DNA from: a virus
Length of the DNA: 52,761 nt
Virus record (IMG/VR): IMGVR_UViG_3300036782_000035
Span: 1-52,761 of that record
Direction: 5' to 3' (one strand)
The notes under the pieces were generated by a model, which searched no databases, was not told the DNA's origin, and saw nothing but the letters and a program-made list of their open reading frames with translations. The position numbers and the translations under genes are program-made. Shown piece by piece: positions 4,251-52,452 of this stretch (its first letter is position 1; each line of letters starts with the position of its first letter).

Positions 4251-7200
4251 AGATCGCCGACAATTACGTCTCGCTGTCCATCAAGGCGACCGACGGGGCG
4301 AAGCCCGACCTGACCGCACTCAAGGCGCAGCTCGACGAGCTGGGCCGGCAGGTGAGCGAGGCGAAGGTCGACGTCGGCGACGACGAGGCGGTCCTCAAGC
4401 TCAAGGACATCAACGCGAAGCTGGCGGCGGTCAACGGGACGGTCAGCAACCCGAAGGTGACCGTCGCCGGGGCTGCCCGCGCAGAGTCCCAGCTTGCCGC
4501 GCTGGCCGTTGCGATGAGGGAACTGCAGGATCTTCCCGCGACGCGGGCCGCCGCATCGCAGGCCGCCTCCGACAAGGAGGCCGCGGCAGCGGAGGCCGCG
4601 GCGCAGCGGGAGGTTGCGGCGGCGCAGTCCGCGGCGGACAAGGAGGCGGCGGCCGCCGACCGCGCGGCGGCGAGTGAGGCGCGGGCGGCAGAGCAGGCCG
4701 CGGCGGCGAAGGAGCGGGCGGAGGCGAAGGCTACCAGCGACGCCGAGCGCGCCGCGGCGCAGCAGGCAAGGGACGCCGCGGCCGCGGCCAAGCTGGCAGG
4801 CCAGAATGCCGGCGACAGCTTCGGGAAGGGCTTCGTCGACTACGTCAAGCCGCCGCTGTCGCTGCCGGCGCTGATCACGGGCGGGGTGCTGACCGGCCTG
4901 GCGGCGCTGCCGGCGCTGACGGCCGGGCTGGGCGCGGCGGCTGGCATCGGGCTGGGCGCGGCGTTCCTGGTGTCGACGAACGCGAGCGTGAAGAACGCGG
5001 GCACGTCGCTGGTGACCACGCTGAAGGGCGTGATGACGCAGGCGACGAAGCCGCTGATCGCCCCGCTGGAGGACGCGTTCAAGCAGCTCGGCTCGTTCAT
5101 GCAGCAGATCGGCCCGCAGATCGGGAGCGTGTTCCAGGCGATCGCGCCGATGATCCAGCCGCTGGTGTACGGGCTCGAGGGCCTCGTCGGCGGCATCCTG
5201 CCCGGGTTCATCTCGCTGATGAGGGCGGCGCAGCCCGCGGTTCAGGCGCTCGCGGGGATCCTCGGCGGCCTGGGCGACGACCTGGGAGCCATGTTCTCCG
5301 CGTTCGCCCCGGCGGTTAAGGCGTCGGCTCAGGTGCTGACGCTGCTGGGTGACCTGCTGGACGGGCTGCTGCCCGTGATCGGGCAGCTGGGCGCTTCGCT
5401 GGCGGGCACGCTGGCGCCGGTGCTGTCGGCGTTCGGCGGCGCGATCAAGGCGATCATGCCGGGGCTGATCCTGGTGGGTAAGGTCATCGGCTCGCTGGCG
5501 GGGGCGATCCTGACGTCGCTGTCGGGGGCCCTGCAGGCGGTGGCGGCGATCGTGAAGGCGGCGGCACCGGGGTTCACGGCGCTGGCGGGGGCGCTGGCGC
5601 AGGTGTTCAGCGCGATGGAGAACACGGGGGCGTTCGGGGCGCTGGAGGACGCGATCGAGTCGGTCGCGGGGCCGCTGGGGCAGCTGGTGAACGGGGTGCT
5701 GAAGGCGGCTGCGCCGATCATCTCGCAGCTGGCGGGGCTGGCGACGGGGCTGGGGGCGTCGCTGTCGGGGGCGCTGGCGGGCGCGGTGGTGGCGATCCTG
5801 CCGCCGCTGGAGAAGCTGGCGACGATGGTGCTGACCACGCTGGCGAAGGTGCTGACGGCGCTGGTGGGCCCGGCGGAGGACTTCTTCGGGGCGATGACCG
5901 TGGCGTTGTCTGACGGGCTGGTCGACGTGGTGGACGCGCTGATCAAGCTGGCGACGCAGGCGCTGGGGCCGCTGCTGAAGGTGCTGCCGACGCTGGCGGG
6001 GCTGATCGGGAAGTTCTTCGAGTCGTTCGCGAGTGACAGCTTCTCAAGCTCCATTAACAAGCTGGTGCAGGCGCTGATCAAGGTCGTCACGGCGGCGTGG
6101 CAGCCGATGCTGGCGCTGCTGCCGGCGCTGGTGCCGCTGGTGGTGGCGCTGCTGTCGGTCTTCACGCCGGTGGTCGCTACGGCGGTCGCGGACATCGCGA
6201 CGGCGCTGGCGGCGATCGTGAGCGCGATCCCGCCGGGTGTCGTCGAGGCGCTGGCCCTCGGGTTCCTCGCGGTCGTGGGAGCGATCAGGGCGTGGGCGGT
6301 CGCGCAGGCGATCCTGAACATCGACCTGATGGCGAACCCGATCGGGCTGCTGGTCGCGGCGATCGCCGCGCTGGTGATCGGGATCGTGGAGCTGGTCAAG
6401 CACTGGCATGACGTGGCGGCGGCGTTCGACGTGGCGCGGCACGCGATCGCGACGGCGGGCCACGACATCGCCGGGGCGTTCGACGCTGTGCGGCACGCGG
6501 TGGCGACGGTGGGCCGTGACATCGTCGCGGGGCTGACCGTCGCGGCGAACTGGATCGCCTCGCACTGGAAGGTGATCCTGGAGTGGCTGGTGGACCCGAT
6601 CGGCATGGCGGTCCACGAGATCCTCACCCACACCCACCAGATAGCGCAGGCGTTCGACGCGATGCGCCACGATGTGGCCGCGGTCCTGGCCGGGGCACGT
6701 CATGACATCAGCGCGGCGTTCGACGACGTGCGCCACGACATCGCGTCGATTCTCGCCGGGATCCGCCACGACATAGCGGCCGACTGGGACAACATCCGCC
6801 ATGACATCGCGGCGGTGGTCGACGCGGTACCGGGTGACGTGGTGAAGGCGTTCGACACGGTGCGCCATGACCTGGCGACGCTGGCGGACGCGATCCGCCA
6901 TGACCTGGCCACGGCCTGGGACAACGTGCGCCACGACCTGGCCAGCGCCTGGGACGCGATCGTGGCGTTCTTCGAGGCGCTGCCCGGCAGGGTGCTGTCG
7001 TTCCTGGCCGCGCTGCCGGGCGACATGCTGACGGCCGGCAAGAACATCATCGACGGGCTGATTCACGGGATCGTGTCGGCGGCGGCGGATATCCCGTCGA
7101 TCATGGCGGGCCTGGCGTCGGACGTGGCGAGCTACTTCACCGACCCTTTGAAGATCTTCTCGCCGTCGCGGGTGTTCATGGAGCACGGCGAGAACATCGT

Positions 7201-25856: not shown

Positions 25857-27233
25857 TTACCGGGCACTTTCCCCCGCAGAGGGCACGTCCGGGGCACACG
25901 GGGCCGGCCGGAGGAACGCGTCGACCGCCGCGCGGGCGTCGCCGTCGTCACCTCCCGGCATGAAGTGCGCGTAGGTGTCGACCACCGTCTTAACCGAGTC
26001 GCCGATGAACTCCGCCACCCGCACGACGTCCGTCCCGGCGCGCAGCTGCGTGCTGACGAAGGTGTGGCGCAGAGCGTGGCAGCCGTCCTCCCGCTCCCGC
26101 CCGTCCTCCGGCGTGATCCCCGCCCGCCGCCGCGCCCGCCGCCACGTGTTGTCCAGCGAGTGGCGCCCCGCGGGCAGGCCCCGCGCCGTCGTCACGATCA
26201 GCCGCGCCGTCACCGGCTTCCCGTGGCGGCCGCCGCGCCCGGCGTCGGCCGGGTCATGCCACGGCAGCGTCACCTCGACGGCGGGGAACTCGTCCAGGTG
26301 CCGCTGGAGCCGCAGCTTCAGCTCCGGCGACAGCGGCGCGCTGTGCGGCTTGCGGTTCTTCAGCGGCGCGAAGGAGAACTCCCCGCCGGCGTACCGCAGC
26401 TGCCGCACCACCCTCACCCGCGGGTCGTCCCGCGTGAGCCAGTCGACGTCGCCGGTGCCGAGCGCGAGCATCTCGCCCTGGCGCAGGCCCGCCCCGGTGC
26501 CGATGTCGACGAGCACGCGCCACCGCGCGGGCAGCTCGGCGCGCATCGCGTCCGCCTGCGCTGCCGTCCAGGCGCGCGCCCTGCTCGGGCCGATCTGCGG
26601 CCAGGTGACGGACTGCGCCTGGGTCGGGTCGCGGTGCACGACGTTGTCGTCGATCGCCACCCGGAAGCAGTAGGACACGTCCCCCATGACGTGGCGGGCG
26701 CGGATCGGCGACAGCGGGATGGCCGCGGCCCACGCGGCGACGAGGCTCGGCTGCGCGGCGAGCAGCGCCATCGGGTGCTGGCCGATCGAGGGGGCGTCCA
26801 TCGGCGTCCTGCCGCTGCCGGGCTCGCCCTCGTAGACGTGGAGCCGCAGCCGCCCTTCGAGGTCGGCGGCGGTCTGGGGGTTGGGGATCCGCCTGCCCTG
26901 GCGGAGCTTCTCGGCGAACTGCCGCAGGGTGACCTTCCCGGCGTTGGGGTCGGTGTAGGTGCGGGTGACGATCTTGCCCTGCGTGAGCGCGTCGAACGCG
27001 GAGGCGTGCCTCTCCGGGTCGGGTTCCTCGCCGCGGGCGGGGTCGCGGAGCGCGAAGTTGCGCTTGCGGCGCTTGCGGGCGGGGGCCGCGGGGTCTTCCC
27101 ACTGGACCTGCCAGCGCCTGGCCTGGCCGTGGACGGCACTCGGGTAGAGGCGGTTGCGGCCCTTGCCGCACGCGCACGGCTGCAGCTGCTCGCCCTCGCG
27201 GGGCGTCACGTGCCAGCGGTCGTAGACGGCCAT
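25857..27233 (-). CDS. int: Tyrosine site-specific integrase
   Basis: 458 residues from ATG 27233, which overlaps the upstream stop (TGATG). The N-terminal region has CACGKGRNRLYP, a basic segment and an SAM-like core-binding domain (~100-215). The catalytic domain has R251 (GAGLRQGEM), K292, HALRH with H386/R389, and nucleophile Y421 (VVDTYAHF). The fifth position, usually His in LGHS, is Asp (IGDS). It inserts and, with an excisionase, excises the phage at attP/attB. Confidence 0.9.
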   Translation of the reverse strand: MAVYDRWHVTPREGEQLQPCACGKGRNRLYPSAVHGQARRWQVQWEDPAAPARKRRKRNFALRDPARGEEPDPERHASAFDALTQGKIVTRTYTDPNAGKVTLRQFAEKLRQGRRIPNPQTAADLEGRLRLHVYEGEPGSGRTPMDAPSIGQHPMALLAAQPSLVAAWAAAIPLSPIRARHVMGDVSYCFRVAIDDNVVHRDPTQAQSVTWPQIGPSRARAWTAAQADAMRAELPARWRVLVDIGTGAGLRQGEMLALGTGDVDWLTRDDPRVRVVRQLRYAGGEFSFAPLKNRKPHSAPLSPELKLRLQRHLDEFPAVEVTLPWHDPADAGRGGRHGKPVTARLIVTTARGLPAGRHSLDNTWRRARRRAGITPEDGREREDGCHALRHTFVSTQLRAGTDVVRVAEFIGDSVKTVVDTYAHFMPGGDDGDARAAVDAFLRPAPCAPDVPSAGESAR

Positions 27234-27496
27234 CAGCGGTACTTCGTGGTAACGCGGACCTTCCGGCGGAACATCGGCCAGACCAGCAGCCAGGCGCCGC
27301 AGGTGAGGATGGTCATCGTCCAGTGGAAGGCGTTGCTGCCCGTCTGGACGGTGACGGTCTTGCGCTCGACGGGCGGCGGCTGGGGCGGGTAGTAGTCCTG
27401 TGGCCGCGCGCCCCACTGCGGCTGCTGCTGCGGGTAAGGCGCGACGGGTCCGTTCTCGTACTGCCTGCCGCGCTGTCTCGGGTCGTACTGGGTCAT
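27233..27496 (-). CDS. Small Pro/Gln-rich membrane protein upstream of integrase
   Basis: 87 residues from ATG 27496 after AAGGAAGGAG. The N-terminal half is Pro/Gln/Tyr-rich (PYPQQQPQW, YYPPQPPP). One TM helix (FHWTMTILTCGAWLLVW) and a basic end follow. It is coupled to int by TGATG and preceded by the perfect 27524 palindrome, so expression of both is probably regulated together. Function unknown. Confidence 0.75.
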   Translation of the reverse strand: MTQYDPRQRGRQYENGPVAPYPQQQPQWGARPQDYYPPQPPPVERKTVTVQTGSNAFHWTMTILTCGAWLLVWPMFRRKVRVTTKYR

Positions 27497-27523
27497 GCTG
27501 CGCTCCTTCCTTCGCGCTGTGCT

Positions 27524-27543
27524 GGATGCATCCTGATGCATCC
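27524..27543. promoter_or_regulatory. Perfect GntR-type operator palindrome
   Basis: GGATGCATC-CT-GATGCATCC, a perfect 9-bp inverted repeat with 2-bp spacer, 28 bases upstream of the start of the membrane protein-integrase pair. The partner site is 25367-25386. Confidence 0.72.
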
Positions 27544-27587
27544 AGCGTCCTGTGGAATCCCACGGGAAACACTTGCAAACATGCTGT

Positions 27588-27671: not shown

Positions 27672-27971
27672 GTGCAGGGGATCAAAGTGCGACGGTTCAG
27701 GCCGGTCACGCTTGTATCGACAATTGTCACAATTGCGGCGGCGTGCCTTTGGGACGTGGCCGCGATGTCAACGTGGGCGGAGGTAGGGCACCCTGCCATT
27801 GCCATCTCAGTGGGCGGCGCGACGTCGGCCACCGTCGTGGCGGCCCTGTGCTGGAAGGCGCGGTGGGACGAGAGGCGCGACCGGGACAAGGCGCTGCTCA
27901 TCAGGACGCTGACCGACGCCATTCCTGGCCGGCCTCTGGCGAAGACGCTCCCGTTTCGCCGCGCTCTTTAG
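27672..27971 (+). CDS. Small membrane protein, possibly superinfection related
   Basis: 99 residues from GTG 27672 after GGGGTGGGGGAG. Two TM helices (VTLVSTIVTIAAACLWDVAA and AIAISVGGATSATVVAALCW) are followed by a charged cytoplasmic tail. It lies between integrase and repressor, a spot where immunity or exclusion genes often sit; that role is inference. It converges with the XRE gene, overlapping 71 bases. Confidence 0.68.
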   Translation: MQGIKVRRFRPVTLVSTIVTIAAACLWDVAAMSTWAEVGHPAIAISVGGATSATVVAALCWKARWDERRDRDKALLIRTLTDAIPGRPLAKTLPFRRAL

Positions 27972-28278
27972 CGAGCGTCCTTTCAATAGCCGCAATGACG
28001 GCCTGGCGCTCATCTTCCGTCAGGCCGTCCGTGGCCTCTATTTCCCTTAGCAAGCTCTTAGGAATTGCGGGCTCAGGTTCAGGCTCGGCGTCCAGGGGGA
28101 CGCCGAGCACTTCTTCGAGCGCGCCGAGGCGGTTGCGCGGCTTACGCCGGTCGTTCTCCCAGTCGCCGACGGCCCTTTTGGACGCGCCGACGAGCCTTGC
28201 TAGGTCTTCCTGGCTGAGCTGCGCCCGCTCTCGCGCGCGGCGAATGCGCGCGCCTAGCGATGGCGGGTTCCGGGCCAT
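27901..28278 (-). CDS. XRE-family repressor (candidate lysogeny repressor)
   Basis: 125 residues from ATG 28278. The N-terminal HTH (LGARIRRARERAQLSQEDLARLVGASKRAVGDWEN) is canonical, though an ATG ten codons upstream is also in frame. The C-terminal half is Glu-rich and helical without peptidase motifs, so it is not a LexA/CI-type self-cleaving protein. It is divergent from the early operon and faces an operator-rich region, fitting the role of main immunity repressor. Confidence 0.85.
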   Translation of the reverse strand: MARNPPSLGARIRRARERAQLSQEDLARLVGASKRAVGDWENDRRKPRNRLGALEEVLGVPLDAEPEPEPAIPKSLLREIEATDGLTEDERQAVIAAIERTLAKERGETGASSPEAGQEWRRSAS

Positions 28279-28281
28279 GGC

Positions 28282-28425
28282 CACATCATGACCGGCAAGT
28301 CGCGGCAAGTCAACGCAACTGTACGCTACATGTCTGGTTTACTCTTGCCACAACTCGCCTCTAGTTGCTTGACAGTGCCCCTCAACGTGCCCTAAGTTGC
28401 CAGTCACTAGCAAGAACTGGCAACT
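28282..28425. promoter_or_regulatory. Divergent repressor/early-operon control region
   Basis: The + promoter candidate is TTGACA (28369-28374), an 18-bp spacer, TAAGTT (28393-28398). Its -10 lies inside a perfect 10-bp inverted repeat AGTTGCCAGT (28395-28404)/ACTGGCAACT (28416-28425). Further half-sites are CAACT-7nt-AGTTG near 28351-28367 and a direct repeat of CGGCAAGTC-like sequence near 28290-28310, close to the repressor start. Binding at the palindrome would block early transcription. Confidence 0.7.
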
Positions 28426-41451: not shown

Positions 41452-42927
41452 CTACGCGACGATCATGCGGACGCCGGGGCGCTTCGGCGGCGGGATGGTG
41501 AGCGCGATCTTCACCGCGCCGGCGCCCGCGTAGGCCGCGTCAACGTGTCCCTCGCCCTTGCGGACGAAGCGCCAGCCGTCGCCTGAGTTGAGCTTCCGCG
41601 ACGCGCTGACGTGCGCGTTCAGCAGCGGGTCATCGGGATGGATGACACGCGATCCCTTGACGAGCACGGAGAACTCCTGGCATCCCTCGGTGACCCGGCT
41701 GCCGGTGATCGCGCCGTCCTCGGGCAGGTCGCCCGGCTCGCGCTTGCCGCCCGGGCGCCTGTTGTACTTCATGCCGAGGGCGCGCAGGGTGGTCGCGCCG
41801 CCCGCTGCGGGCCCGCTCGAGTACCAGCCGAACGCCGCGGGCCTGATCTTGGCGAGCAGGCCGGGCAGCTCGGCGAGCGCCCTGTTGATGTCGTCCCATG
41901 CCTCGGCTACCTCGACGCGGGCGCGGCCGTCGTCGAGGCGCGCTGCGACGGCCAGCGTGGCGTGCTTGCCGTCTGGCGCGGCGTCGAAGCAGGCGCCGAT
42001 GCGGTCGCGGTGGCCGTCGAGGGTTCCGGCGAGGTCGGCGCACCCTTCCCAGCGCGCGAGGTCGATTGCGCCGTCGAGCGCGTCGACCTTCTGACATAGC
42101 ACCTCGGTGCGGAACACCTCAGGTGTCTCGGTAGCGCACGCGGTGCGGATGGCTGACTCGGAGACGGTGTAACCGAGGCCGGGGTTGGCCTGCCGCCAGG
42201 CGCGGGTGTCGTCGAGCTCGCAGCCGTCCTCGCCGGACCACTCGAAGAGGCCGACGGACTCGTCGCGGCCGGACAAGGCTGAGTCGCGGAGCTGGTTGAG
42301 CACGGTGCTGGTGTCGTCGCCCGCGTTCGACAGGCAGATGGTGAGCGGATTCGGCCTGGCCATGGTCGTGTAGTAGAGCGCTGACCAGGCTTTACGGTCC
42401 CGGTGAGTCCTGAGTTCATCCATGATCAGGCCATCGACGCTAAATCCGCGGCCTGCGTCGGGTGTGGCACTCCTGACCATGTACTCGGCGCCGTTCTTCA
42501 GCCCGAACGCCTCCTGGCCGTTGACGTGCCGGTGGTAGCTCAGGCGCCGGGCGAGCGACGGCGTGTCCTCGATCATGCGGAGGGTGAGTTTCCACTGGTT
42601 GGACGCCTGGGCGAGGTCTTGAGCGGTGCCGAGGATCAGCCGGCAGTCGTCGTCGAAGAGCATCCGCCACAGGGTGATCATCCGCATCAGATGTGATTTC
42701 CCGGATTGCCGGGCCACCATGATCAGGACGATGCGGAAGCGGTAAGTACCGTCGGCGTTGACCTCCATGGCGTGCTTGACGGCCCACTGCTGCCAGGGAA
42801 GGAGCGGCTCGCCGATCGCTTCGGCGAAGTCGATGACGTCGTAGCCGTAGCTGGTGCGCCGCGAGAGCGGCCGGAGCGGTTCGGGGTGCAGGCGCGCTTC
42901 GGTGATGCCGCGCAGCTGCTTAGGCAC
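41452..42927 (-). CDS. Terminase large subunit
   Basis: 491 residues from GTG 42927. ATPase Walker A VARQSGKS (71-78), Walker B LIMDE (167-171) with TCLSNAGDD-like coupling motif (ICLSNAGDD), and C-terminal nuclease region (ACFDAAPDGKHATLAV, HPDDPLLNAHVSASRKL, DAAYAGAGA). It cuts and packages phage DNA with the portal. It is encoded on the strand opposite to the portal and head genes, which is unusual. Confidence 0.92.
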   Translation of the reverse strand: MPKQLRGITEARLHPEPLRPLSRRTSYGYDVIDFAEAIGEPLLPWQQWAVKHAMEVNADGTYRFRIVLIMVARQSGKSHLMRMITLWRMLFDDDCRLILGTAQDLAQASNQWKLTLRMIEDTPSLARRLSYHRHVNGQEAFGLKNGAEYMVRSATPDAGRGFSVDGLIMDELRTHRDRKAWSALYYTTMARPNPLTICLSNAGDDTSTVLNQLRDSALSGRDESVGLFEWSGEDGCELDDTRAWRQANPGLGYTVSESAIRTACATETPEVFRTEVLCQKVDALDGAIDLARWEGCADLAGTLDGHRDRIGACFDAAPDGKHATLAVAARLDDGRARVEVAEAWDDINRALAELPGLLAKIRPAAFGWYSSGPAAGGATTLRALGMKYNRRPGGKREPGDLPEDGAITGSRVTEGCQEFSVLVKGSRVIHPDDPLLNAHVSASRKLNSGDGWRFVRKGEGHVDAAYAGAGAVKIALTIPPPKRPGVRMIVA

Positions 42928-43676: not shown

Positions 43677-43929
43677 CGTGACCGCCGACGAGCTCCTGAA
43701 GAGGGCTGCGGCCTGCCGGGACTGCGGCAAGGAGCACGAGTACCGCCAAGTCGAGACGTCCCGGGGAAGCTGGGCGGCCGGCGACGGCCACGCTTACCGC
43801 CCGGTAGTCGATATCGGCATCGTCGCGAAGCTCCGCTACCTCGCGACCGGCAGCTACGTGGATCCCTGGCTGCTGCCCAAGCAAACAATGGCGTCCAAGA
43901 TCGCCTCAGCGATCGGGCTGAGCACCTGA
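43669..43929 (+). CDS. Small pre-portal protein
   Basis: 86 residues from GTG 43669, coupled to both neighbours. CRDCGKEHEYRQ may bind metal; the rest is a VVDIGIVAKLRYLATGSYV beta/helical region. Function unknown. Confidence 0.72.
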   Translation: MADVTADELLKRAAACRDCGKEHEYRQVETSRGSWAAGDGHAYRPVVDIGIVAKLRYLATGSYVDPWLLPKQTMASKIASAIGLST

Positions 43930-45371
43930 TGGGCTCGCTGCTGGGCCAGTTGATGAACGCGAAGGCGTCGCAGTCCGCCGGCTCGCCGGTGCCGATGGGC
44001 GGCGGCATGGTGGGCATGCCGGGCAGCTCGTCCGGGAGCAATATCGACCTGACGCTGATCCGCTCGTACCGGATGAACGGGACCGTCTACTCGAACGTGT
44101 CGCTGATGGCGCGGTCGGTCGCCAAGCAGCAGTGGAACCTGTACCGGCAGGCGCCGCCGTCGGCCCGGTTCACGACCAGCGACCGCGGCAGCGACCAGCG
44201 CAAGCAGGTCCAGGTGCACGCGGCCCTGAACGTGCTCAACTCCCCGGCCAGCATCACGGTGCCGACGCCGCGCGGGCCTAAGCGGATCCAGGTGTGGAGC
44301 CGCTCGCAGCTGTTTTACGTGTCGCAGATCTGGATGAAGACGTGCGGCAAGTCGTACTGGATCGTCGACACGGCCGAGGACGCCTCGCCGATCCCCTTGG
44401 GGCTGTGGCCGGTGCGCCCGGACCGCATCATCCCGGTTCCCGACCGGAACCGCTACCTGGCGGGGTACCTGTACCGCTCGCCGGACGGCCAGGAGATGAT
44501 CCCGCTGCGGCCGGACGAGGTGATCGTCAACCGCTACGCGGACCCTGAGGACCCTTACGGCGGCTGCGGGCCGATTCAGGCGGTGCTGGCCGATATCCAG
44601 GCGGCTGATTACGCGGCTGAGTGGAATAAGAACTACTTCGTCAATTCGGCTGAGCCGGGCGGCATTATCCAGCTTGACACGACGCTCAATGACGAGGAAT
44701 TCGACCAGTTCACCAGCCGCTGGCGGGAAACTCACCGGGGCGTGGCGAGGGCGCACCGCATCGCGGTGCTTGAGGCCGGGGCGACGTGGGTTGCGAACAA
44801 CCACAGTGCCCGTGACATGGACTTTGTCAACCTGCGGAATTCCTCGCGTGACATTATCCGCGAGGCACTGGCAATGCACAAGGTAATGACCGGGGTAACA
44901 GAAGATGTCAACAGGGCCAATGCGCAGACCGGGGAAGAGGTTTTCTCTTCCTGGACGGTCGCGCCGGACCTTGAGCAGTGGCGAGACGACGTAATCAACA
45001 CGCAGTTCCTTCCGCTGTTCGGTGATACCGCGCAGGGCGTGGAATTCGACTTCGCGTACCCCACGCCGGCGAACCGCGAGCAGGACAACGCCGAATTGAC
45101 GACGAAGACGGCGGCGTACTCGGTGCTGGTGGACGCGGGGGTTGACCCGGATGACGCGGCGCAGGTGGTCGGGCTGCCGCCGATGAAGATGGCCGAGGTC
45201 GCGACCCAGTCGCCGGCTCTGCCGCCCGGCTGGGTGCCGGAGCTCGCGCCCGGTGCCGCGCCCGCTCCTGATGCGGCCGCTGTCGCGTCGGCCGAGGCGA
45301 TCCTGCGCGCCGCGGCGGCACGGGATCCGCGGGCGATGGCCATTTACAACCAGCTGGCGGGCGCATCATGA
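43929..45371 (+). CDS. Portal protein (HK97 family)
   Basis: 480 residues, ATG overlapping the previous stop. NGTVYSNVSLMARSVAKQQW, LYVSQIWMK-like (LFYVSQIWMKTCGKSYW), DRIIPVPDRNRYLAGYLYR, ITGVTEDVNRANA-type (MTGVTEDVNRANA) and a Pro/Ala-rich end are classic portal features. It forms the dodecameric entry ring at one vertex. Confidence 0.9.
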   Translation: MGSLLGQLMNAKASQSAGSPVPMGGGMVGMPGSSSGSNIDLTLIRSYRMNGTVYSNVSLMARSVAKQQWNLYRQAPPSARFTTSDRGSDQRKQVQVHAALNVLNSPASITVPTPRGPKRIQVWSRSQLFYVSQIWMKTCGKSYWIVDTAEDASPIPLGLWPVRPDRIIPVPDRNRYLAGYLYRSPDGQEMIPLRPDEVIVNRYADPEDPYGGCGPIQAVLADIQAADYAAEWNKNYFVNSAEPGGIIQLDTTLNDEEFDQFTSRWRETHRGVARAHRIAVLEAGATWVANNHSARDMDFVNLRNSSRDIIREALAMHKVMTGVTEDVNRANAQTGEEVFSSWTVAPDLEQWRDDVINTQFLPLFGDTAQGVEFDFAYPTPANREQDNAELTTKTAAYSVLVDAGVDPDDAAQVVGLPPMKMAEVATQSPALPPGWVPELAPGAAPAPDAAAVASAEAILRAAAARDPRAMAIYNQLAGAS

Positions 45372-46039: not shown

Positions 46040-47499
46040 CTGGATACCCGTTCAGGGCCCGCATCCGCGCCGAGGGCACCTCTACCCGCGTCGACCTCAT
46101 GGATGACATAGGAGAGGACCCGTGGTTCGGCGGGGGCATCTCTGCGGCGGCGTTCACTGACAGCCTGTCCGGGCTGCGCGGGCCGCTCGACGTGCACATC
46201 AGCAGCCAGGGCGGCATGGTCGACCAGGGGCTCGCAATCTACAACGCGCTGGCCTCCTACAAGGGCCCAGTGACGACCTACAACGACGGGATCGCGGCCT
46301 CGATCGCGTCGGTGATCATGCAGGCGGGCTCGAAGCGGGTGGCGAGTCCAGTGTCGGTCATGATGCTGCACGACGCCTGGGGTGACCCGGGGCCCGGCAA
46401 CGCGGCCGACATGGAGGCGATGCGCGCGGCTCTGGACAAGAACTCCGACGTCATCGCGCGGGCTTACGCCGACCGGGCTGGCGGGACGGTCGCGTCATGG
46501 CGCGAGGTCATGCAGAACACGGCCTGGTACGACGCGGACGACGCGCTCAAGGCTGGGCTGATCGACGAGATCGCGGGCGGGTCGAAGCTCCCGGGCACCG
46601 TGGACCTTGACGCACTGGCCGCAGCGAAGGCCCCGACGAGGATCATGGCCGCGCTGCGCGCCGCGGCGGATGACGGCTCAGGCGACGGCGACGGCACCGG
46701 CCAGTCGTGCAAGACGTGCGGCGGCAAGGGGCGCCTGCCGCACCCTGGCACCGGCAAGAACGGGATGACCTGCCCTGGCTGCGGCGGCAGCGGCACTTAC
46801 GACCCGGCTGCGGCGCCGGACGGCGACGGCGACCCGGACGAGGGCATGGAGCTCGGCGACCGCGGCCCGGCGGTGCACGCCAAGGCGGGCGACGAGCAGC
46901 TCGGCAGCGGCTGGGTCAAGGGCGCTGACGGCAAGGTCCGGTTCGACCCGGACGGCGACGGCGACGACGACAGCACGCCTGAGGGCGATACCGACCACGA
47001 CTACTTCGACGCGGACGGCAAGCAGATCAAGCCGATCCCGCCCCGCCCGCCCGCGGCGAAGGACGAGGGCCCGGACCTGTGGGCGGTCTACCGGATGGCA
47101 GTGCGGGACGCCGGCAAGGTCGACAACAGCCCGTGGGACTCGAGCAAGGCGTGGTCGGCGGGCGCTGCATCCGATGACCCCGCTGCGTTCTACGCGGGGA
47201 TCTGCGCGGGCGAGAAGGCGGGCGACAAGTCAACGCAGGCCGCGTGGGCGCTGCCGTACAGGTACGCGCCCGGTGACCCGCCGAACGAGAAGGGCGTTGA
47301 GGCCGCTCTCGCGGCACTGAACGGCGCCCGCGGCGGCGTGCAGGGGCTCACCAATGAGGCCGAGGCGAAGAAGACGCTGCAGGCGGCGATGAAGCAGGTC
47401 AACCCGGACTGGGAGCCGGAAGACAGCACCACAGCGAGCATCTCCGCGGCTGACGCCCTGGAGCGGTACCGAGCGGCTCTGAAGGGAGCGCAAACGTGA
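46036..47499 (+). CDS. ClpP-like prohead protease with DnaJ-type zinc domain
   Basis: 487 residues from TTG 46036 (alternative starts further in are poorer). The SDH-type/ClpP-fold protease has VHISSQGGMVDQGLAIYNAL, nucleophile S89 in DGIAAS and H112 in MLHDAW. After residue ~215 come two C-x2-C-x-G-x-G modules (CKTCGGKGR, CPGCGGSG), a DnaJ-like zinc-ribbon pair. An Asp-rich linker and a WALPYRYAPGDPPN helical domain, likely scaffolding, follow. It processes the prohead. Confidence 0.88.
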   Translation: MTGYPFRARIRAEGTSTRVDLMDDIGEDPWFGGGISAAAFTDSLSGLRGPLDVHISSQGGMVDQGLAIYNALASYKGPVTTYNDGIAASIASVIMQAGSKRVASPVSVMMLHDAWGDPGPGNAADMEAMRAALDKNSDVIARAYADRAGGTVASWREVMQNTAWYDADDALKAGLIDEIAGGSKLPGTVDLDALAAAKAPTRIMAALRAAADDGSGDGDGTGQSCKTCGGKGRLPHPGTGKNGMTCPGCGGSGTYDPAAAPDGDGDPDEGMELGDRGPAVHAKAGDEQLGSGWVKGADGKVRFDPDGDGDDDSTPEGDTDHDYFDADGKQIKPIPPRPPAAKDEGPDLWAVYRMAVRDAGKVDNSPWDSSKAWSAGAASDDPAAFYAGICAGEKAGDKSTQAAWALPYRYAPGDPPNEKGVEAALAALNGARGGVQGLTNEAEAKKTLQAAMKQVNPDWEPEDSTTASISAADALERYRAALKGAQT

Positions 47500-48998
47500 A
47501 GGGACAGGTAGCGATCCCCGAAAGCTCCGAAGAGCTTGAGGAACTGCTGCACGACGACGGGCGGATGGGCGAGGTTGCCGGCAGCCCCGAGCTGCTGGCC
47601 GAGTTCACCCAGAAGTACCAGGGTGCGTGGAAGGCGAAGAACGCGCTGGCGATCCGCGAGATGGCGGAGAAGCAGCAGGTGGACTACCAGGACTTCATGC
47701 GCGAGCAGGCCGACAAGCACGGCGCCCGCGCACCGGAGGGCTACCAGCCCGGCGCGCCCGCGGCGTTCGGCGGGTCGAAGCGCTCGCGGGCGCTGGCGAA
47801 GTCGCGGCTGCGGAACGCGGCGGCGCAGTTCGAGAGGCACCACCTGTTCAGCCCCACCGCGATCGGCGGGGGCCTGGAGGACGCCGAGTACGCCGACAAC
47901 CTGCGGCAGTTCATCTGGGCGACGCTGAAGGGCGAGGCGGTCGCGGCGCAGAACGGCGACTCCGAGCTCGCCGGGAAGCTGCTGTCGCTCAAGGGGCAGC
48001 TGGCCAAGCAGCTGGAGATCCGCAACGCGGGCATGAGCGAGCGGATCCCGTCCGAGGGCGGCTTTTTGGTTCCGGAGACGCTGCGGTCGGAGATCTACGC
48101 GCTGATGCTGGAGGAGTCGGTGATCAGCGACCAGGCGACCACGATTCCCATGGACAGCCTGCGGGTTCCGCTGCCGACGATCGACGACACTTCGCACGCC
48201 TCGAGCGTGTTCGGCGGGGTGGCGGGCGCGTGGACGGCTGAGGGCGCGGCGATGTCGACGTCGTCGCCGACGTTCTCCCGCCTCGTGCTGATCGCCAACA
48301 AGCTGACCGCTTACACCGAGATTCCGAACGAGCTGCTGCAGGACAGCGTGTCGGCGATGGACGTGTGGTTCAACACGTTCTTCCCGCAGGCGCTCGCGTT
48401 CTTCCGTGACCTGGCGTTTATCACGGGGGACGGCGTCAACCAGCCCCTGGGGCTCGCCAACGCTCCCGGCGCGGTGAAGGTGACGGGTACCAGCTCCCAC
48501 CACATCAGGTTCGCGAACGTGGTGTCGATGTTCTCGCGGATGTGGCCGGGCTCGCTGAAGAACGCCGTGTGGCTGGCCGCGCCGGACACGCTGCCGGAGC
48601 TGGCGCAGATGGCGGTGTCCGAGGACGGCTCCGGCGGTACCACGGTTGCGCCGCCGGTGTTCCTGCCGGGCATGTCGGCGCTGAACGCGCCGGGTGAGTA
48701 CGACGGCCGCTCGTTCACGCTGATGGGCCGGCCGGGGATCGTGTCGGAGAAGGTCCCGGCGCTGGCCGGGTCGGTTCCGGGCTCGCTGATGTTCGTGGAC
48801 CTGTCCAAGTACCTCGTCGGCGACCGGCAGGCCATGCAGGTCGCATCTTCGGCCGAGTACAAGTTCGCCAACGACATGGTCGCCTACCGGGTGATCGAAA
48901 GGCTGGATGGGCGGCCTTGGGTGCAGTCGCAGATCACCCCGGCGAACGGGTCGGCCAACACCCTCTCGCCGTACGTCCTTCTCGACACCACGAGCTGA
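47496..48998 (+). CDS. Major capsid protein, HK97 fold (copy 1, with scaffolding domain)
   Basis: 500 residues from GTG 47496. An N-terminal helical delta/scaffold region (~1-185) is followed by SERIPSEGGFLVPETLR (mature start), PVFLPGMSALN-type E-loop and C-terminal beta region (SLMFVDLSKYLVGDRQAM, YRVIERLDGRPWV). It forms the capsid shell after protease cleavage near residue 180. Confidence 0.92.
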   Translation: MKGQVAIPESSEELEELLHDDGRMGEVAGSPELLAEFTQKYQGAWKAKNALAIREMAEKQQVDYQDFMREQADKHGARAPEGYQPGAPAAFGGSKRSRALAKSRLRNAAAQFERHHLFSPTAIGGGLEDAEYADNLRQFIWATLKGEAVAAQNGDSELAGKLLSLKGQLAKQLEIRNAGMSERIPSEGGFLVPETLRSEIYALMLEESVISDQATTIPMDSLRVPLPTIDDTSHASSVFGGVAGAWTAEGAAMSTSSPTFSRLVLIANKLTAYTEIPNELLQDSVSAMDVWFNTFFPQALAFFRDLAFITGDGVNQPLGLANAPGAVKVTGTSSHHIRFANVVSMFSRMWPGSLKNAVWLAAPDTLPELAQMAVSEDGSGGTTVAPPVFLPGMSALNAPGEYDGRSFTLMGRPGIVSEKVPALAGSVPGSLMFVDLSKYLVGDRQAMQVASSAEYKFANDMVAYRVIERLDGRPWVQSQITPANGSANTLSPYVLLDTTS

Positions 48999-49010: not shown

Positions 49011-49346
49011 ATGTCGGTCTACTCGCAGTTCCTGACTCCAGTTGACGCGGTCACTGTTAATCACACCACGTTGACGGAAGTCGGCTCCGTGGTCGATTTC
49101 GGTGTCGTCTACAGCGGCTTCACCGCCTTTGCATCCATAGACCCTTCTAGCGCAGACGACGCCACCGTCGTCGTGGACACCTCAATCGATGACGTGACCT
49201 GGCTTTCCGCGCCGAGCGCGGACGTCGGCGTTGGCGACATGGCAGTCGTGGCAGTTCCGGCCGGCCGGTACGTGCGCGTCAAGAGTTCCGTTTCTAGCGA
49301 GGGTCAATCATCCATCCTGACTGTTCAGGTCGCGGTCGAGGGCTGA
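49011..49346 (+). CDS. Capsid-associated small protein (decoration-like)
   Basis: 111 residues, ATG after GAAAGGAAGCC. Beta-rich, Asp/Ser/Thr-rich with RYVRVKSSVS-like strands, typical of a small jelly-roll or decoration protein between capsid genes. Its DNA is slightly less GC-rich. Function inferred from position. Confidence 0.65.
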   Translation: MSVYSQFLTPVDAVTVNHTTLTEVGSVVDFGVVYSGFTAFASIDPSSADDATVVVDTSIDDVTWLSAPSADVGVGDMAVVAVPAGRYVRVKSSVSSEGQSSILTVQVAVEG

Positions 49347-50482
49347 TGGACTTCCGGGACTCGCCGCACTACAGGGCGGACGCGCCGGGCGCGCGGCTGG
49401 ATGACCAGCCGTGGGCCCGGTCGTGGCCTGCCTTTTTGTCGGCCGTGTTCGACTCGCGGGACGGCTCGGCCCGGCAGTTCATCAGGAACGCGTGGACGGA
49501 AAGAATCCCGAGCGAGGGCGGCTTTTTGGTTCCGGAGTCCCTTAGGGCCTCCGTCATGGCGTACGTCACTCCGGCTGTCGTCAGGCCCCGGGCGCTGGTG
49601 CTGCCGATGGGCACTTTGCGCATGGGCATCCCCGTGCTGGACAGCTCGTCGCAGGCGGGCGGCGCGCAGTCCCTGGGCGGAATGACGTTTTCCTTCGTGC
49701 AGGACGGCGCGGCGATCCCGAGCAGCACGCCGGGCCTGGCGCGGGTGATGCTGGAGGCGCAGAAGCTTGCGGCGCTGGCAGCGATCCCGAACGAGCTGGA
49801 CTCGGACGCGGCGGGCGCGCTGGGTGACCTGTTCTCTCGGGTGGTGGCGCTGGGCTACTCCTGGTACGAGGATGACGCGTTCATCGGCGGCAACGGGGCC
49901 GGGCAGCCGCAGGGGGTGCTGAACGCCCCGTGCGCGGTCACGGTGACCCGGGCGGCCTCCGGGCTGCCGGCGGCGGCGGACCTGGCGAACATGATCAGCG
50001 CGTTCCACCCGGCGTCGCTGGCGGCGGGGTACGCGCCAGAGGTGAACGGCGTGGGCTGGCTGGTGTCGCAGTCGGTGATCACCGGCATCTTGCAGCAGTA
50101 CCTCGTTCCCGGCGGGGGCACGGCGACGAGCGGCGCGCCCGCGTCGCTCCCGGCGTGGCTGAGCCTGGGCGACGGGCGCCTGACCGCCCCGGCCATTCTC
50201 GGGCTGCCCGCGCTCATCTCCGACCACTCGCCCGCGGCGGGCTCGGCCGGCGATATCGCGCTGGTCGACTTCCGGCACTACGCGATCGGCGACCGGATGG
50301 AGCTGACGGTGGACAGGTCGGCGGCCGGCTCCGGGTTCGCCTCCGACGTGACGAACTACAGGTTCAGGGCCCGGGTTGACGGCCGGTACACGGTCATGGG
50401 CCCGATTACTCCCGAGATCGGCGCGGGAGACGACAACGCCGACCTGGTCAGCCCGGTCGTCATTCTCGGCGCGGCTTCTTAG
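49346..50482 (+). CDS. Second HK97-fold capsid-like protein (no scaffolding domain)
   Basis: 378 residues, ATG overlapping the previous stop. TERIPSEGGFLVPESLR aligns with copy 1, and IPNEL--D, AFIGGNGAGQPQGVLNAP, VDFRHYAIGDRMELTV follow in the same order. It lacks the ~130 N-terminal residues of copy 1. A 25-base DNA stretch with CTTTTTGG is identical at 48053-48077 and 49513-49537. It may be a vertex (pentamer) subunit like T4 gp24, or a minor capsid variant. Confidence 0.85.
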   Translation: MDFRDSPHYRADAPGARLDDQPWARSWPAFLSAVFDSRDGSARQFIRNAWTERIPSEGGFLVPESLRASVMAYVTPAVVRPRALVLPMGTLRMGIPVLDSSSQAGGAQSLGGMTFSFVQDGAAIPSSTPGLARVMLEAQKLAALAAIPNELDSDAAGALGDLFSRVVALGYSWYEDDAFIGGNGAGQPQGVLNAPCAVTVTRAASGLPAAADLANMISAFHPASLAAGYAPEVNGVGWLVSQSVITGILQQYLVPGGGTATSGAPASLPAWLSLGDGRLTAPAILGLPALISDHSPAAGSAGDIALVDFRHYAIGDRMELTVDRSAAGSGFASDVTNYRFRARVDGRYTVMGPITPEIGAGDDNADLVSPVVILGAAS

Positions 50483-51333: not shown

Positions 51334-51583
51334 CCAGGCGAACGGCTGGTGGGGGCTGCACAGCGTCTTCGAGGAGAGCCGGCAGGAGTTCGACGCCTAC
51401 TGGAGCCGTCCGCCGGTGGACTGCCCGATCTGCGGTCAGCCACTGGTGAACGCGCCGAGCACGAGTTCAGGTTCGGGGGTTGAGCTGTACTGCAATTACG
51501 CCGGCGATCACTCGTTCCGGTACCCGCGTGACTTCTCGCCTGCCGTCCGGTTCGACTCGGGCGGGCAGGTGAGCCCGCTGTGA
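51326..51583 (+). CDS. Small zinc-ribbon head-region protein
   Basis: 85 residues from ATG 51326 overlapping the previous gene by 8 bases. CPICGQPLVN and ELYCNYAGDH give a probable zinc site, with YPRDFSPAVRF near the end. It resembles a conserved small protein of actinophage head regions. Confidence 0.75.
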   Translation: MASQANGWWGLHSVFEESRQEFDAYWSRPPVDCPICGQPLVNAPSTSSGSGVELYCNYAGDHSFRYPRDFSPAVRFDSGGQVSPL

Positions 51584-52452
51584 GCGCGAAGCCGGTTACC
51601 CCGACGAAGCCCGCCAAGCCCGCGGCCGCGAAGACGACCGTCAAGAAGGCGAAGACGAGCAGTAAGGCGGCCAAGACGAAGAGCAGCAAGGCGTCGCCGC
51701 CGTTGTCGGCGAAGGCGAAGGCGGCTGCGCACGTCGCGCACGTGAAGCATGAGCAGCACCTGGCGCATGAGGCGCACCTGAAGGCTGAGGGGAAGGTGGT
51801 GGCGCTCGCTATCGGTGACGCGCTGCCGGTGTGCGCGTTCGAGGCTGTGGCCGCGTCGCTACGCTTGCTCGGCGCGCGGGTGCACGGTGACGATGTCGGC
51901 GAGCTGTGGCACCTGCTGGGCGAGCCGGAGGCGGCGCCGGTTGGCGAGGCGCTAGCTGCTGCTGCCCTGTTCGGACTGGCCGGGTACCGGCCAGTCGCTA
52001 CTGCCGGAGATGACCTCGGCAGCCTCGCCTGGCATGAGGGCGACCCCTCCGAACTGGACTTTGGGCACGTCAACGGGCGTCATGAGTCGAACGACGGTGG
52101 TCTTCAGTGCCATCGCCAGTCCGGTGATTTCGTCCGCTTGGACAGAGCGTGCTTCCCGTTCGACCTTGCTCATGGTCTGCGGGTACCAGTCATCGAAGCC
52201 GAGCCAGCGCATGCGCTCGCAAGTCTCTTGCTGGGAGATGTTGAGGCGAGCGCGGGCGGCCCTGATGTTCGCAGCGAGAACACTCGAATAGTTCGTCATG
52301 AACTAGAACGTAGCACAGGGCACCTGATCCTAAGCGTGGACGTTCCCGGCCCGCACGCGGTGCTGGCGACCGCTGACGGCTGGTGGTCGTGGGGCGAGCT
52401 GTACGACCCGTGGCCGTGCCGCGTCAGCGACGCGTGGGCGGTGAGCTGGTGA
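51580..52452 (+). CDS. C39-peptidase-like protein interrupted by an in-frame nested region
   Basis: 290 residues from GTG 51580. The N-terminus is Lys/Ala-rich and basic. The next part ALPVCAFEAVAASLRLLGARV and AAALFGLAGYRPV, and the end LILSVDVPGPHAVLATADGW and WWSWGELYDPWPC, match a cysteine-peptidase-like protein found in this position in actinophages (putative Cys and His as marked). About 105 residues between them (about 51995-52315) do not look like that family and are antisense to an XRE gene. The + frame stays open through it. Confidence 0.75.
   Translation: MSAKPVTPTKPAKPAAAKTTVKKAKTSSKAAKTKSSKASPPLSAKAKAAAHVAHVKHEQHLAHEAHLKAEGKVVALAIGDALPVCAFEAVAASLRLLGARVHGDDVGELWHLLGEPEAAPVGEALAAAALFGLAGYRPVATAGDDLGSLAWHEGDPSELDFGHVNGRHESNDGGLQCHRQSGDFVRLDRACFPFDLAHGLRVPVIEAEPAHALASLLLGDVEASAGGPDVRSENTRIVRHELERSTGHLILSVDVPGPHAVLATADGWWSWGELYDPWPCRVSDAWAVSW
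51952..52299 (-). CDS. XRE repressor nested antisense within the peptidase-like gene
   Basis: 115 residues from ATG 52299. The HTH (LAANIRAARARLNISQQETCERM and MSKVEREARSVQADEITGLAMAL) is a complete XRE domain, followed by a short C-terminal VPKVQFGGVALMPGE beta part. No Shine-Dalgarno is present; TACGTT lies 7 bases upstream of the ATG, so the mRNA is probably leaderless. The gene lies wholly within 51580-52452 in antisense. Confidence 0.82.
   Translation of the reverse strand: MTNYSSVLAANIRAARARLNISQQETCERMRWLGFDDWYPQTMSKVEREARSVQADEITGLAMALKTTVVRLMTPVDVPKVQFGGVALMPGEAAEVISGSSDWPVPGQSEQGSSS
51974..51996. repeat. 10-bp perfect inverted repeat inside the nested region
   Basis: GACTGGCCGG-GTA-CCGGCCAGTC at the 3' end of the nested XRE gene. 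It may be its terminator-like hairpin or a scar at the edge of the inserted segment. Confidence 0.5.
52289..52305. promoter_or_regulatory. Operator-like palindrome over the nested XRE start
   Basis: TAGTTC-gtcat-GAACTA spans the start codon (52297-52299) of the nested repressor. Typical of autoregulated leaderless repressor genes. Confidence 0.5.

Follow-up and report, generated by a model that had tools for sequence, protein, structure and literature searches.

We regard it as probable that a papain/C39-like gene of the phage head operon carries an intragenic slot for small antisense, moron-like accessory genes, occupied in the present phage by an XRE-type regulator with a candidate autoregulatory operator. 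The window analysed here, the IMG/VR virus record IMGVR_UViG_3300036782_000035 (52,761 bases), contains a plus-strand ORF with a minus-strand ORF nested wholly within it, both of which had been pointed out in a previous sequence-only reading that interpreted them as an XRE gene inserted antisense and in frame in a peptidase-like gene. The comparison with relatives supports this interpretation, the term peptidase-like being itself deduced. The elements that define the locus are as follows:

51580 to 52452, plus strand: outer (host) gene, 290 aa, GTG start (ORF; relatives with invariant Cys and His; AlphaFold2)
51784 to 51993, plus strand: conserved N block GD.LPVCAFEAVA.SLRL...GLAGYRP with the putative catalytic Cys (alignment; pLDDT ~90 or more)
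51991 to 52323, plus strand: slot between the N and C blocks, 111 codons in this phage (pLDDT mostly 25-55)
52324 to 52449, plus strand: conserved C block (LILSVDVPGPHAVLATADGWWSWGELYDP...) with the putative catalytic His (alignment; AlphaFold2)
51952 to 52299, minus strand: nested cargo gene, 115-aa XRE-type DNA-binding regulator, ATG start (ORF; Pfam; PHROG; homologues)
51952 to 51954, minus strand: stop codon TAG of the XRE gene, read on the plus strand as the sense codon CTA (Leu) at position -11 of GLAG

The outer gene was assigned to the head operon because a portal gene, a ClpP-type protease gene and two Phage_capsid genes all lie upstream of it on the plus strand. The two Phage_capsid (PF05065) genes stand in tandem (47496-48998, 500 aa, E 7.6e-46; 49346-50482, 378 aa, E 4.9e-24), which looks like a duplication within the major capsid family, and the terminase large subunit ATPase is encoded on the minus strand (41452-42927), divergent from the plus-strand portal (43929-45371) and head genes. 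The gap directly downstream of the outer gene is a second variable spot, which holds differing plus-strand genes in relatives, such as an exonuclease-like ORF in L003 (3778-4353) and another small ORF in L004 (4411-4809). The outer-gene family belongs to soil-type temperate phages, in which it lies next to the capsid gene, and the present phage is itself probably temperate, since it carries the two following genes, the second of which is a stronger XRE match than the nested one:

25857 to 27578, minus strand: tyrosine integrase
27901 to 28308, minus strand: XRE gene adjoining the integrase, above the Pfam cut-off

The outer protein is made of a basic tail, a Cys-bearing N block, the variable slot and a His-bearing C block. 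Viral contigs were scanned with the window protein, its C block and its N block, yielding 46 distinct records in which the gene could be assessed. The half with the Cys and the half with the His are each conserved across these 46 phage records, and both residues, the Cys on a helix and the His on a strand, are invariant (45 sequences). AlphaFold2 produced a compact alpha+beta fold for a short-linker member (pLDDT 90), while in the window protein both halves reached ~90 or more and the insert mostly 25-55, the slot being predicted as disordered. The protein had no Pfam match. In a fold search, in which none of the following matches was significant by E-value, the best PDB match was PCAT1 (probability 0.82, E 0.13), pro-papain gave a TM of 0.56 (E 1.2), and the viral matches included a C39-annotated phage protein (E 0.05). 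The search thus points weakly to C39/papain-like peptidases, and the peptidase role is putative, suggested by the fold together with the Cys and His. No member of the family turned up in 395 Actinomycetes genomes, and a pattern search of genome contigs gave no confirmed relative.

Comparison with the relatives confirmed that the plus-strand protein matches a single family at its two ends but not in its middle. The insert exceeds the shortest linkers by ~90-100 residues, close to the estimate of about 105 made from the single sequence, and related genes that are uninterrupted do exist (L065, L072, L078 and others); the relatives lack the window's middle region, and the minus frame has homologues. 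The edges of the insert do not coincide with those of the minus-strand gene, because the final ~14 codons of the latter run into the conserved N block (...EALAAAALFGLAG). Slot length ranges from 12 to 111 codons in the 46 records: with a threshold of 34 codons, chosen after the lengths had been seen, 21 records have short slots (12-32 codons) and 25 have long ones (35-111 codons). As a rule, a long slot carries a minus-strand ORF in the codon-aligned register, L089 being an exception. A minus-strand stretch, GAGACCTATCCGAGA, is common to the related L089/L096 records, with long and short slots.

Whether the plus frame stays open by selection can be judged from the family. For the window gene alone, the chance of an open frame was 0.56 with phage codon usage and 0.11 with the gene's own third-base composition, figures that assume aligned minus and plus codons and leave the required register and length out of the calculation; this openness is not very improbable and could be luck. 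Among records retrieved with the N block alone, a procedure that could have caught frameshifted or stopped slots, the C block was in frame with the N block in 42 of 42 assessable cases (L079, whose gene runs off the contig, is outside this count). Openness across the family is thus not due to chance, and the sequences imply that selection maintains a continuous protein from N to C block.

As for the nested protein, it aligned through residues 8-69 with positions 2-58 of the 64 in the Pfam HTH_31 (PF13560) profile (E=0.0015; 19.3 bits, 19.8 in another run); as this score is under the curated cut-off of 27, the protein is called XRE-like and is no formal Pfam member. It also matched a PHROG transcriptional regulator (E=4.9e-4) and, weakly, a restriction-system control protein in PADLOC, and stand-alone relatives were found in 12 of the 395 Actinomycetes genomes (best E=1.6e-8, best identity 36%). 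GC content drops from ~70% to ~60% across roughly 52050-52350. The CTA codon that provides the stop site (51952) is present in nine long-slot records, the window included, and in one short-linker record (L064). Three further elements lie around the start of the gene:

52327 to 52332, minus strand: putative -10 element TAGGAT of the slot promoter, the inherited one, encoded on the plus strand as the ATC CTA of a Leu-Ile-Leu
52307 to 52312, minus strand: second -10-like element TACGTT, 7 nt before the XRE ATG, with leaderless spacing (sequence; spacing rule from PMC3160421), a candidate -10 for the XRE gene itself
52289 to 52305, no strand: perfect inverted repeat TAGTTC-N5-GAACTA over the XRE start codon, a candidate autoregulatory operator

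With 0 mismatches, the repeat occurs in the whole record only at this place, and allowing up to 2 mismatches gave 3 occurrences versus 0.18 expected; copies with 3 mismatches included no convincing second target in the record. The position of the sole perfect copy, over the gene's own start codon, points to autoregulation and not to control of a different promoter. The XRE gene would most likely be expressed from either TAGGAT or TACGTT, limiting its own synthesis.

The contents of the slot differ among phages. Besides the XRE gene of the window, they comprise two families of small proteins, several singletons and a tRNA-Gly, most of the cargo having no recognised function. Family A (ELRG...EQ..(T/S)DP) is found in L060, L062, L067 and L057 and, by sequence, also in the more distant L103; family B (VTGEEVLEW..R.GFILSEWQ) is found in L003, L005 and L063/L021, with a similar motif in L010. 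A WQ motif is common to family B and the L010 cargo, the latter (4328-4492, minus) bearing a weak resemblance to the terminase large subunit N-terminus (phrog_9, E 0.025). Singletons occupy the slots of L058, L059, L061, L071, L080, L030, L085 and L087, and the L080/L015 cargo is a 38-aa peptide whose sequence suggests a single membrane helix with a basic tail, a putative membrane peptide. In L021, a tRNA-Gly(gcc) lies on the minus strand (Rfam, 49.7 bits) besides the family B gene. A tRNA suspected in the L012/L070 slot was called by neither ARAGORN nor Rfam and was not counted; the T-arm-like stretch behind that suspicion, GGGTTCGAGTCCCGC (L012, same record as L070, slot at ~4376-4516, minus), has possible acceptor complementarity and may represent a degraded tRNA or the remnant of an att-like site. 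Cargo replacement is indicated by the sister outer genes of L057 and L059 (support 95/95), of which the first carries family A and the second other cargo. The window's nearest relative, L061, likewise has cargo unrelated to XRE, and the non-monophyly of the family A hosts was not decisive (AU p=0.08).

A promoter-like motif recurs at a fixed place in the slot. The Leu-Ile-Leu of the C block is encoded as CTG-ATC/ATT-CTA in most long-slot records, which reads as TAGGAT or TAGAAT on the minus strand. The phage seldom uses CTA, which accounts for 0.16% of the codons in a sample of ten ORFs. TANNNT is present at this position in 16 of 25 long slots, being absent from the other nine, versus 0 of 21 short slots, and in 11 of the 16 an ATG follows exactly 6 nt past the motif, so that its first T lies 12 bp before the ATG. 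Across 373 kb (both strands), there are 21 cases of TANNNT-N6-ATG opening an ORF of 35 aa or more, 12 of them at the slot (binomial P ~4e-11). The records are related, and when promoter presence was tested against slot length with the tree taken into account, the independent pairs were too few for significance, every informative pair pointing in the same direction. In L021 the motif lies upstream of the tRNA, and the adjoining protein gene has its own TAGGAT-N6-ATG. A role for TAGGATCAG as a Shine-Dalgarno sequence was considered and set aside, as a -10 element fits better: the motif also precedes the L021 tRNA, and its spacing matches that of leaderless genes. The Leu-Ile-Leu motif is thus a putative leaderless promoter of the actinobacterial type inside the plus-strand coding sequence. 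In leaderless bacterial genes, the first T of TANNNT lies ~12 bp before the start codon (PMC3160421; compare PMC3898074), as does the TAGGAT of most motif-bearing slots; the slot element differs from those promoters in lying within, and being shared with, the coding sequence of another gene.

That the minus-strand cargo is coding is supported by two further signals. High-GC genes usually have their highest GC at codon position 3, and in the codon-aligned register position 1 of the plus codons is position 3 of the minus ones. Plus-strand GC1 exceeded GC3 in 23 of 25 long slots, versus 5 of 25 N blocks and 0 of 25 C blocks. Counts of substitutions at each codon position approached saturation and carried little information, and a BLOSUM62 comparison of both strands was therefore adopted: in families A and B the minus-strand proteins were better conserved than the plus-strand readings in nine of nine pairs, with the alignment guided by either strand. 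Taken with the XRE homology, the tRNA and the motif at Leu-Ile-Leu, these signals lead us to consider the minus-strand genes real.

All these observations could be integrated by assuming that the loop joining the Cys-bearing and His-bearing halves of the outer protein acts as a cargo slot. Small genes would lodge in it antisense to the outer gene and codon-aligned with it, leaving the plus frame readable, and would be expressed, usually as leaderless mRNA, from a -10 element within the conserved Leu-Ile-Leu codons that probably functions as a promoter. The cargo varies among phages, even among close relatives of the outer gene, cassettes presumably being swapped by recombination in the slot flanks, and the plus-strand protein would accommodate the insert as a disordered loop. 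Expression would occur mainly in lysogeny, when the head operon is silent, as befits an accessory (moron-like) gene. In this phage, the cargo is an XRE regulator, probably autoregulated via the palindrome over its own start codon. A stronger version, tentative and with somewhat less than an even chance in our estimation, holds that the slot is a specialised exchange site, where selection favours cassettes that have no stop codons on the opposite strand and that match a promoter encoded in the codons of the outer gene itself. If so, temperate phages would gain lysogeny-expressed regulators, putative membrane proteins and a tRNA while adding little length and leaving a structural-operon gene unbroken, and antisense transcription from the slot may hinder incoming relatives.

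An origin of the minus-strand ORFs by overprinting of the plus-strand linker, some becoming genes once a -10 element evolved, is unlikely, although it deserves serious weight. The codon-aligned antisense register is seldom stopped in high-GC DNA, many minus-strand ORFs elsewhere are plainly mechanical, and every confident cargo ORF is in that register. Stand-alone homologues of family A were not found in phages or viral contigs, nor those of family B in phages, viral contigs or the 395 Actinomycetes genomes, so that for both families overprinting as well as insertion is possible. Against it, the XRE gene has stand-alone homologues and lower GC, a tRNA could not in practice arise that way, and families A and B bear GC and conservation signals on the minus strand.

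The sequence-only reading had further proposed a late-gene switch or escape circuit, in which the XRE gene and the head operon would oppose each other via antisense transcription and repression. The geometry is genuinely antisense and the putative operator covers the XRE promoter and start, but a dedicated circuit of this kind, while possible, found no specific support and seems to us quite improbable: the family pattern suggests otherwise, since relatives use the same slot for unrelated cargo, such as a tRNA or a putative membrane peptide, and strand opposition is thus a by-product of the site. Moreover, an ordinary and stronger XRE match lies beside the integrase, and a second perfect operator is absent from the record. 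Still harder to sustain is the idea that the minus-strand ORFs are spurious and the slot a fast-evolving linker of a high-GC gene; long spurious antisense ORFs are indeed frequent in this genome and a few long slots lack credible cargo (L089, L066), but the HTH homology of the XRE cargo, the tRNA-Gly, the reversed codon-position GC, the better conserved minus strand and the promoter motif at a fixed place make it very improbable. A self-removing intein or intron, suggested by an in-frame insert within a conserved gene, is scarcely credible, as neither an Rfam intron match (window slot and 12 relatives) nor conserved splice-type ends across slots were found, and the inserts are too short and too diverse for inteins.

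A cargo slot of this kind would matter in several ways. Gene callers usually discard ORFs nested antisense within another gene, and such cargo would therefore escape routine annotation, so that locating the slot offers a simple route to mining new small phage proteins. If expressed, the cargo would offer a recurrent example from nature of gene pairs that use both strands of the same DNA, in which a conserved promoter dictates synonymous codons of the outer gene, and phage accessory genes would be housed inside, and not only between, the genes of a structural operon. No description of an intragenic antisense cargo slot was found in the open-access literature, which does not prove that none exists.

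The nearest known analogue of the slot cargo is the moron, an autonomous accessory gene expressed from prophages and in some cases antisense to lytic genes, as in Salmonella prophages (PMC7067206). Like morons, the cargo consists of small, seemingly autonomous genes among late genes, antisense to lytic genes, with a promoter-like signal of their own (TANNNT-N6-ATG at the slot) and, here, lower GC; it varies between related phages, being present in some, absent from close relatives and different at one site. Unlike morons, which are inserted between two phage genes, it lies within one ORF in all cases, that is, inside a protein-coding gene whose frame is kept; its -10 element is part of the conserved codons of that gene, and one and the same site takes in different cargo, a tRNA among it. 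The antisense overlapping genes olg1-olg2 of phage Fc02, which have exclusion activity (PMC9936078), resemble the slot in their extensive opposite-strand overlap and in being thought to be expressed in lysogeny, and by analogy the slot cargo may act in lysogeny or exclusion; they belong to a lysis/lysogeny control region, whereas the slot is a swappable cargo site in a head-operon gene of many phages. Finally, STnc6030 of prophage BTP1, a 786-nt non-coding antisense RNA able to block superinfection (PMC7067206), is likewise antisense to structural genes, and a similar RNA effect of the slot units is possible, although, in contrast to STnc6030, these units mostly encode small proteins.
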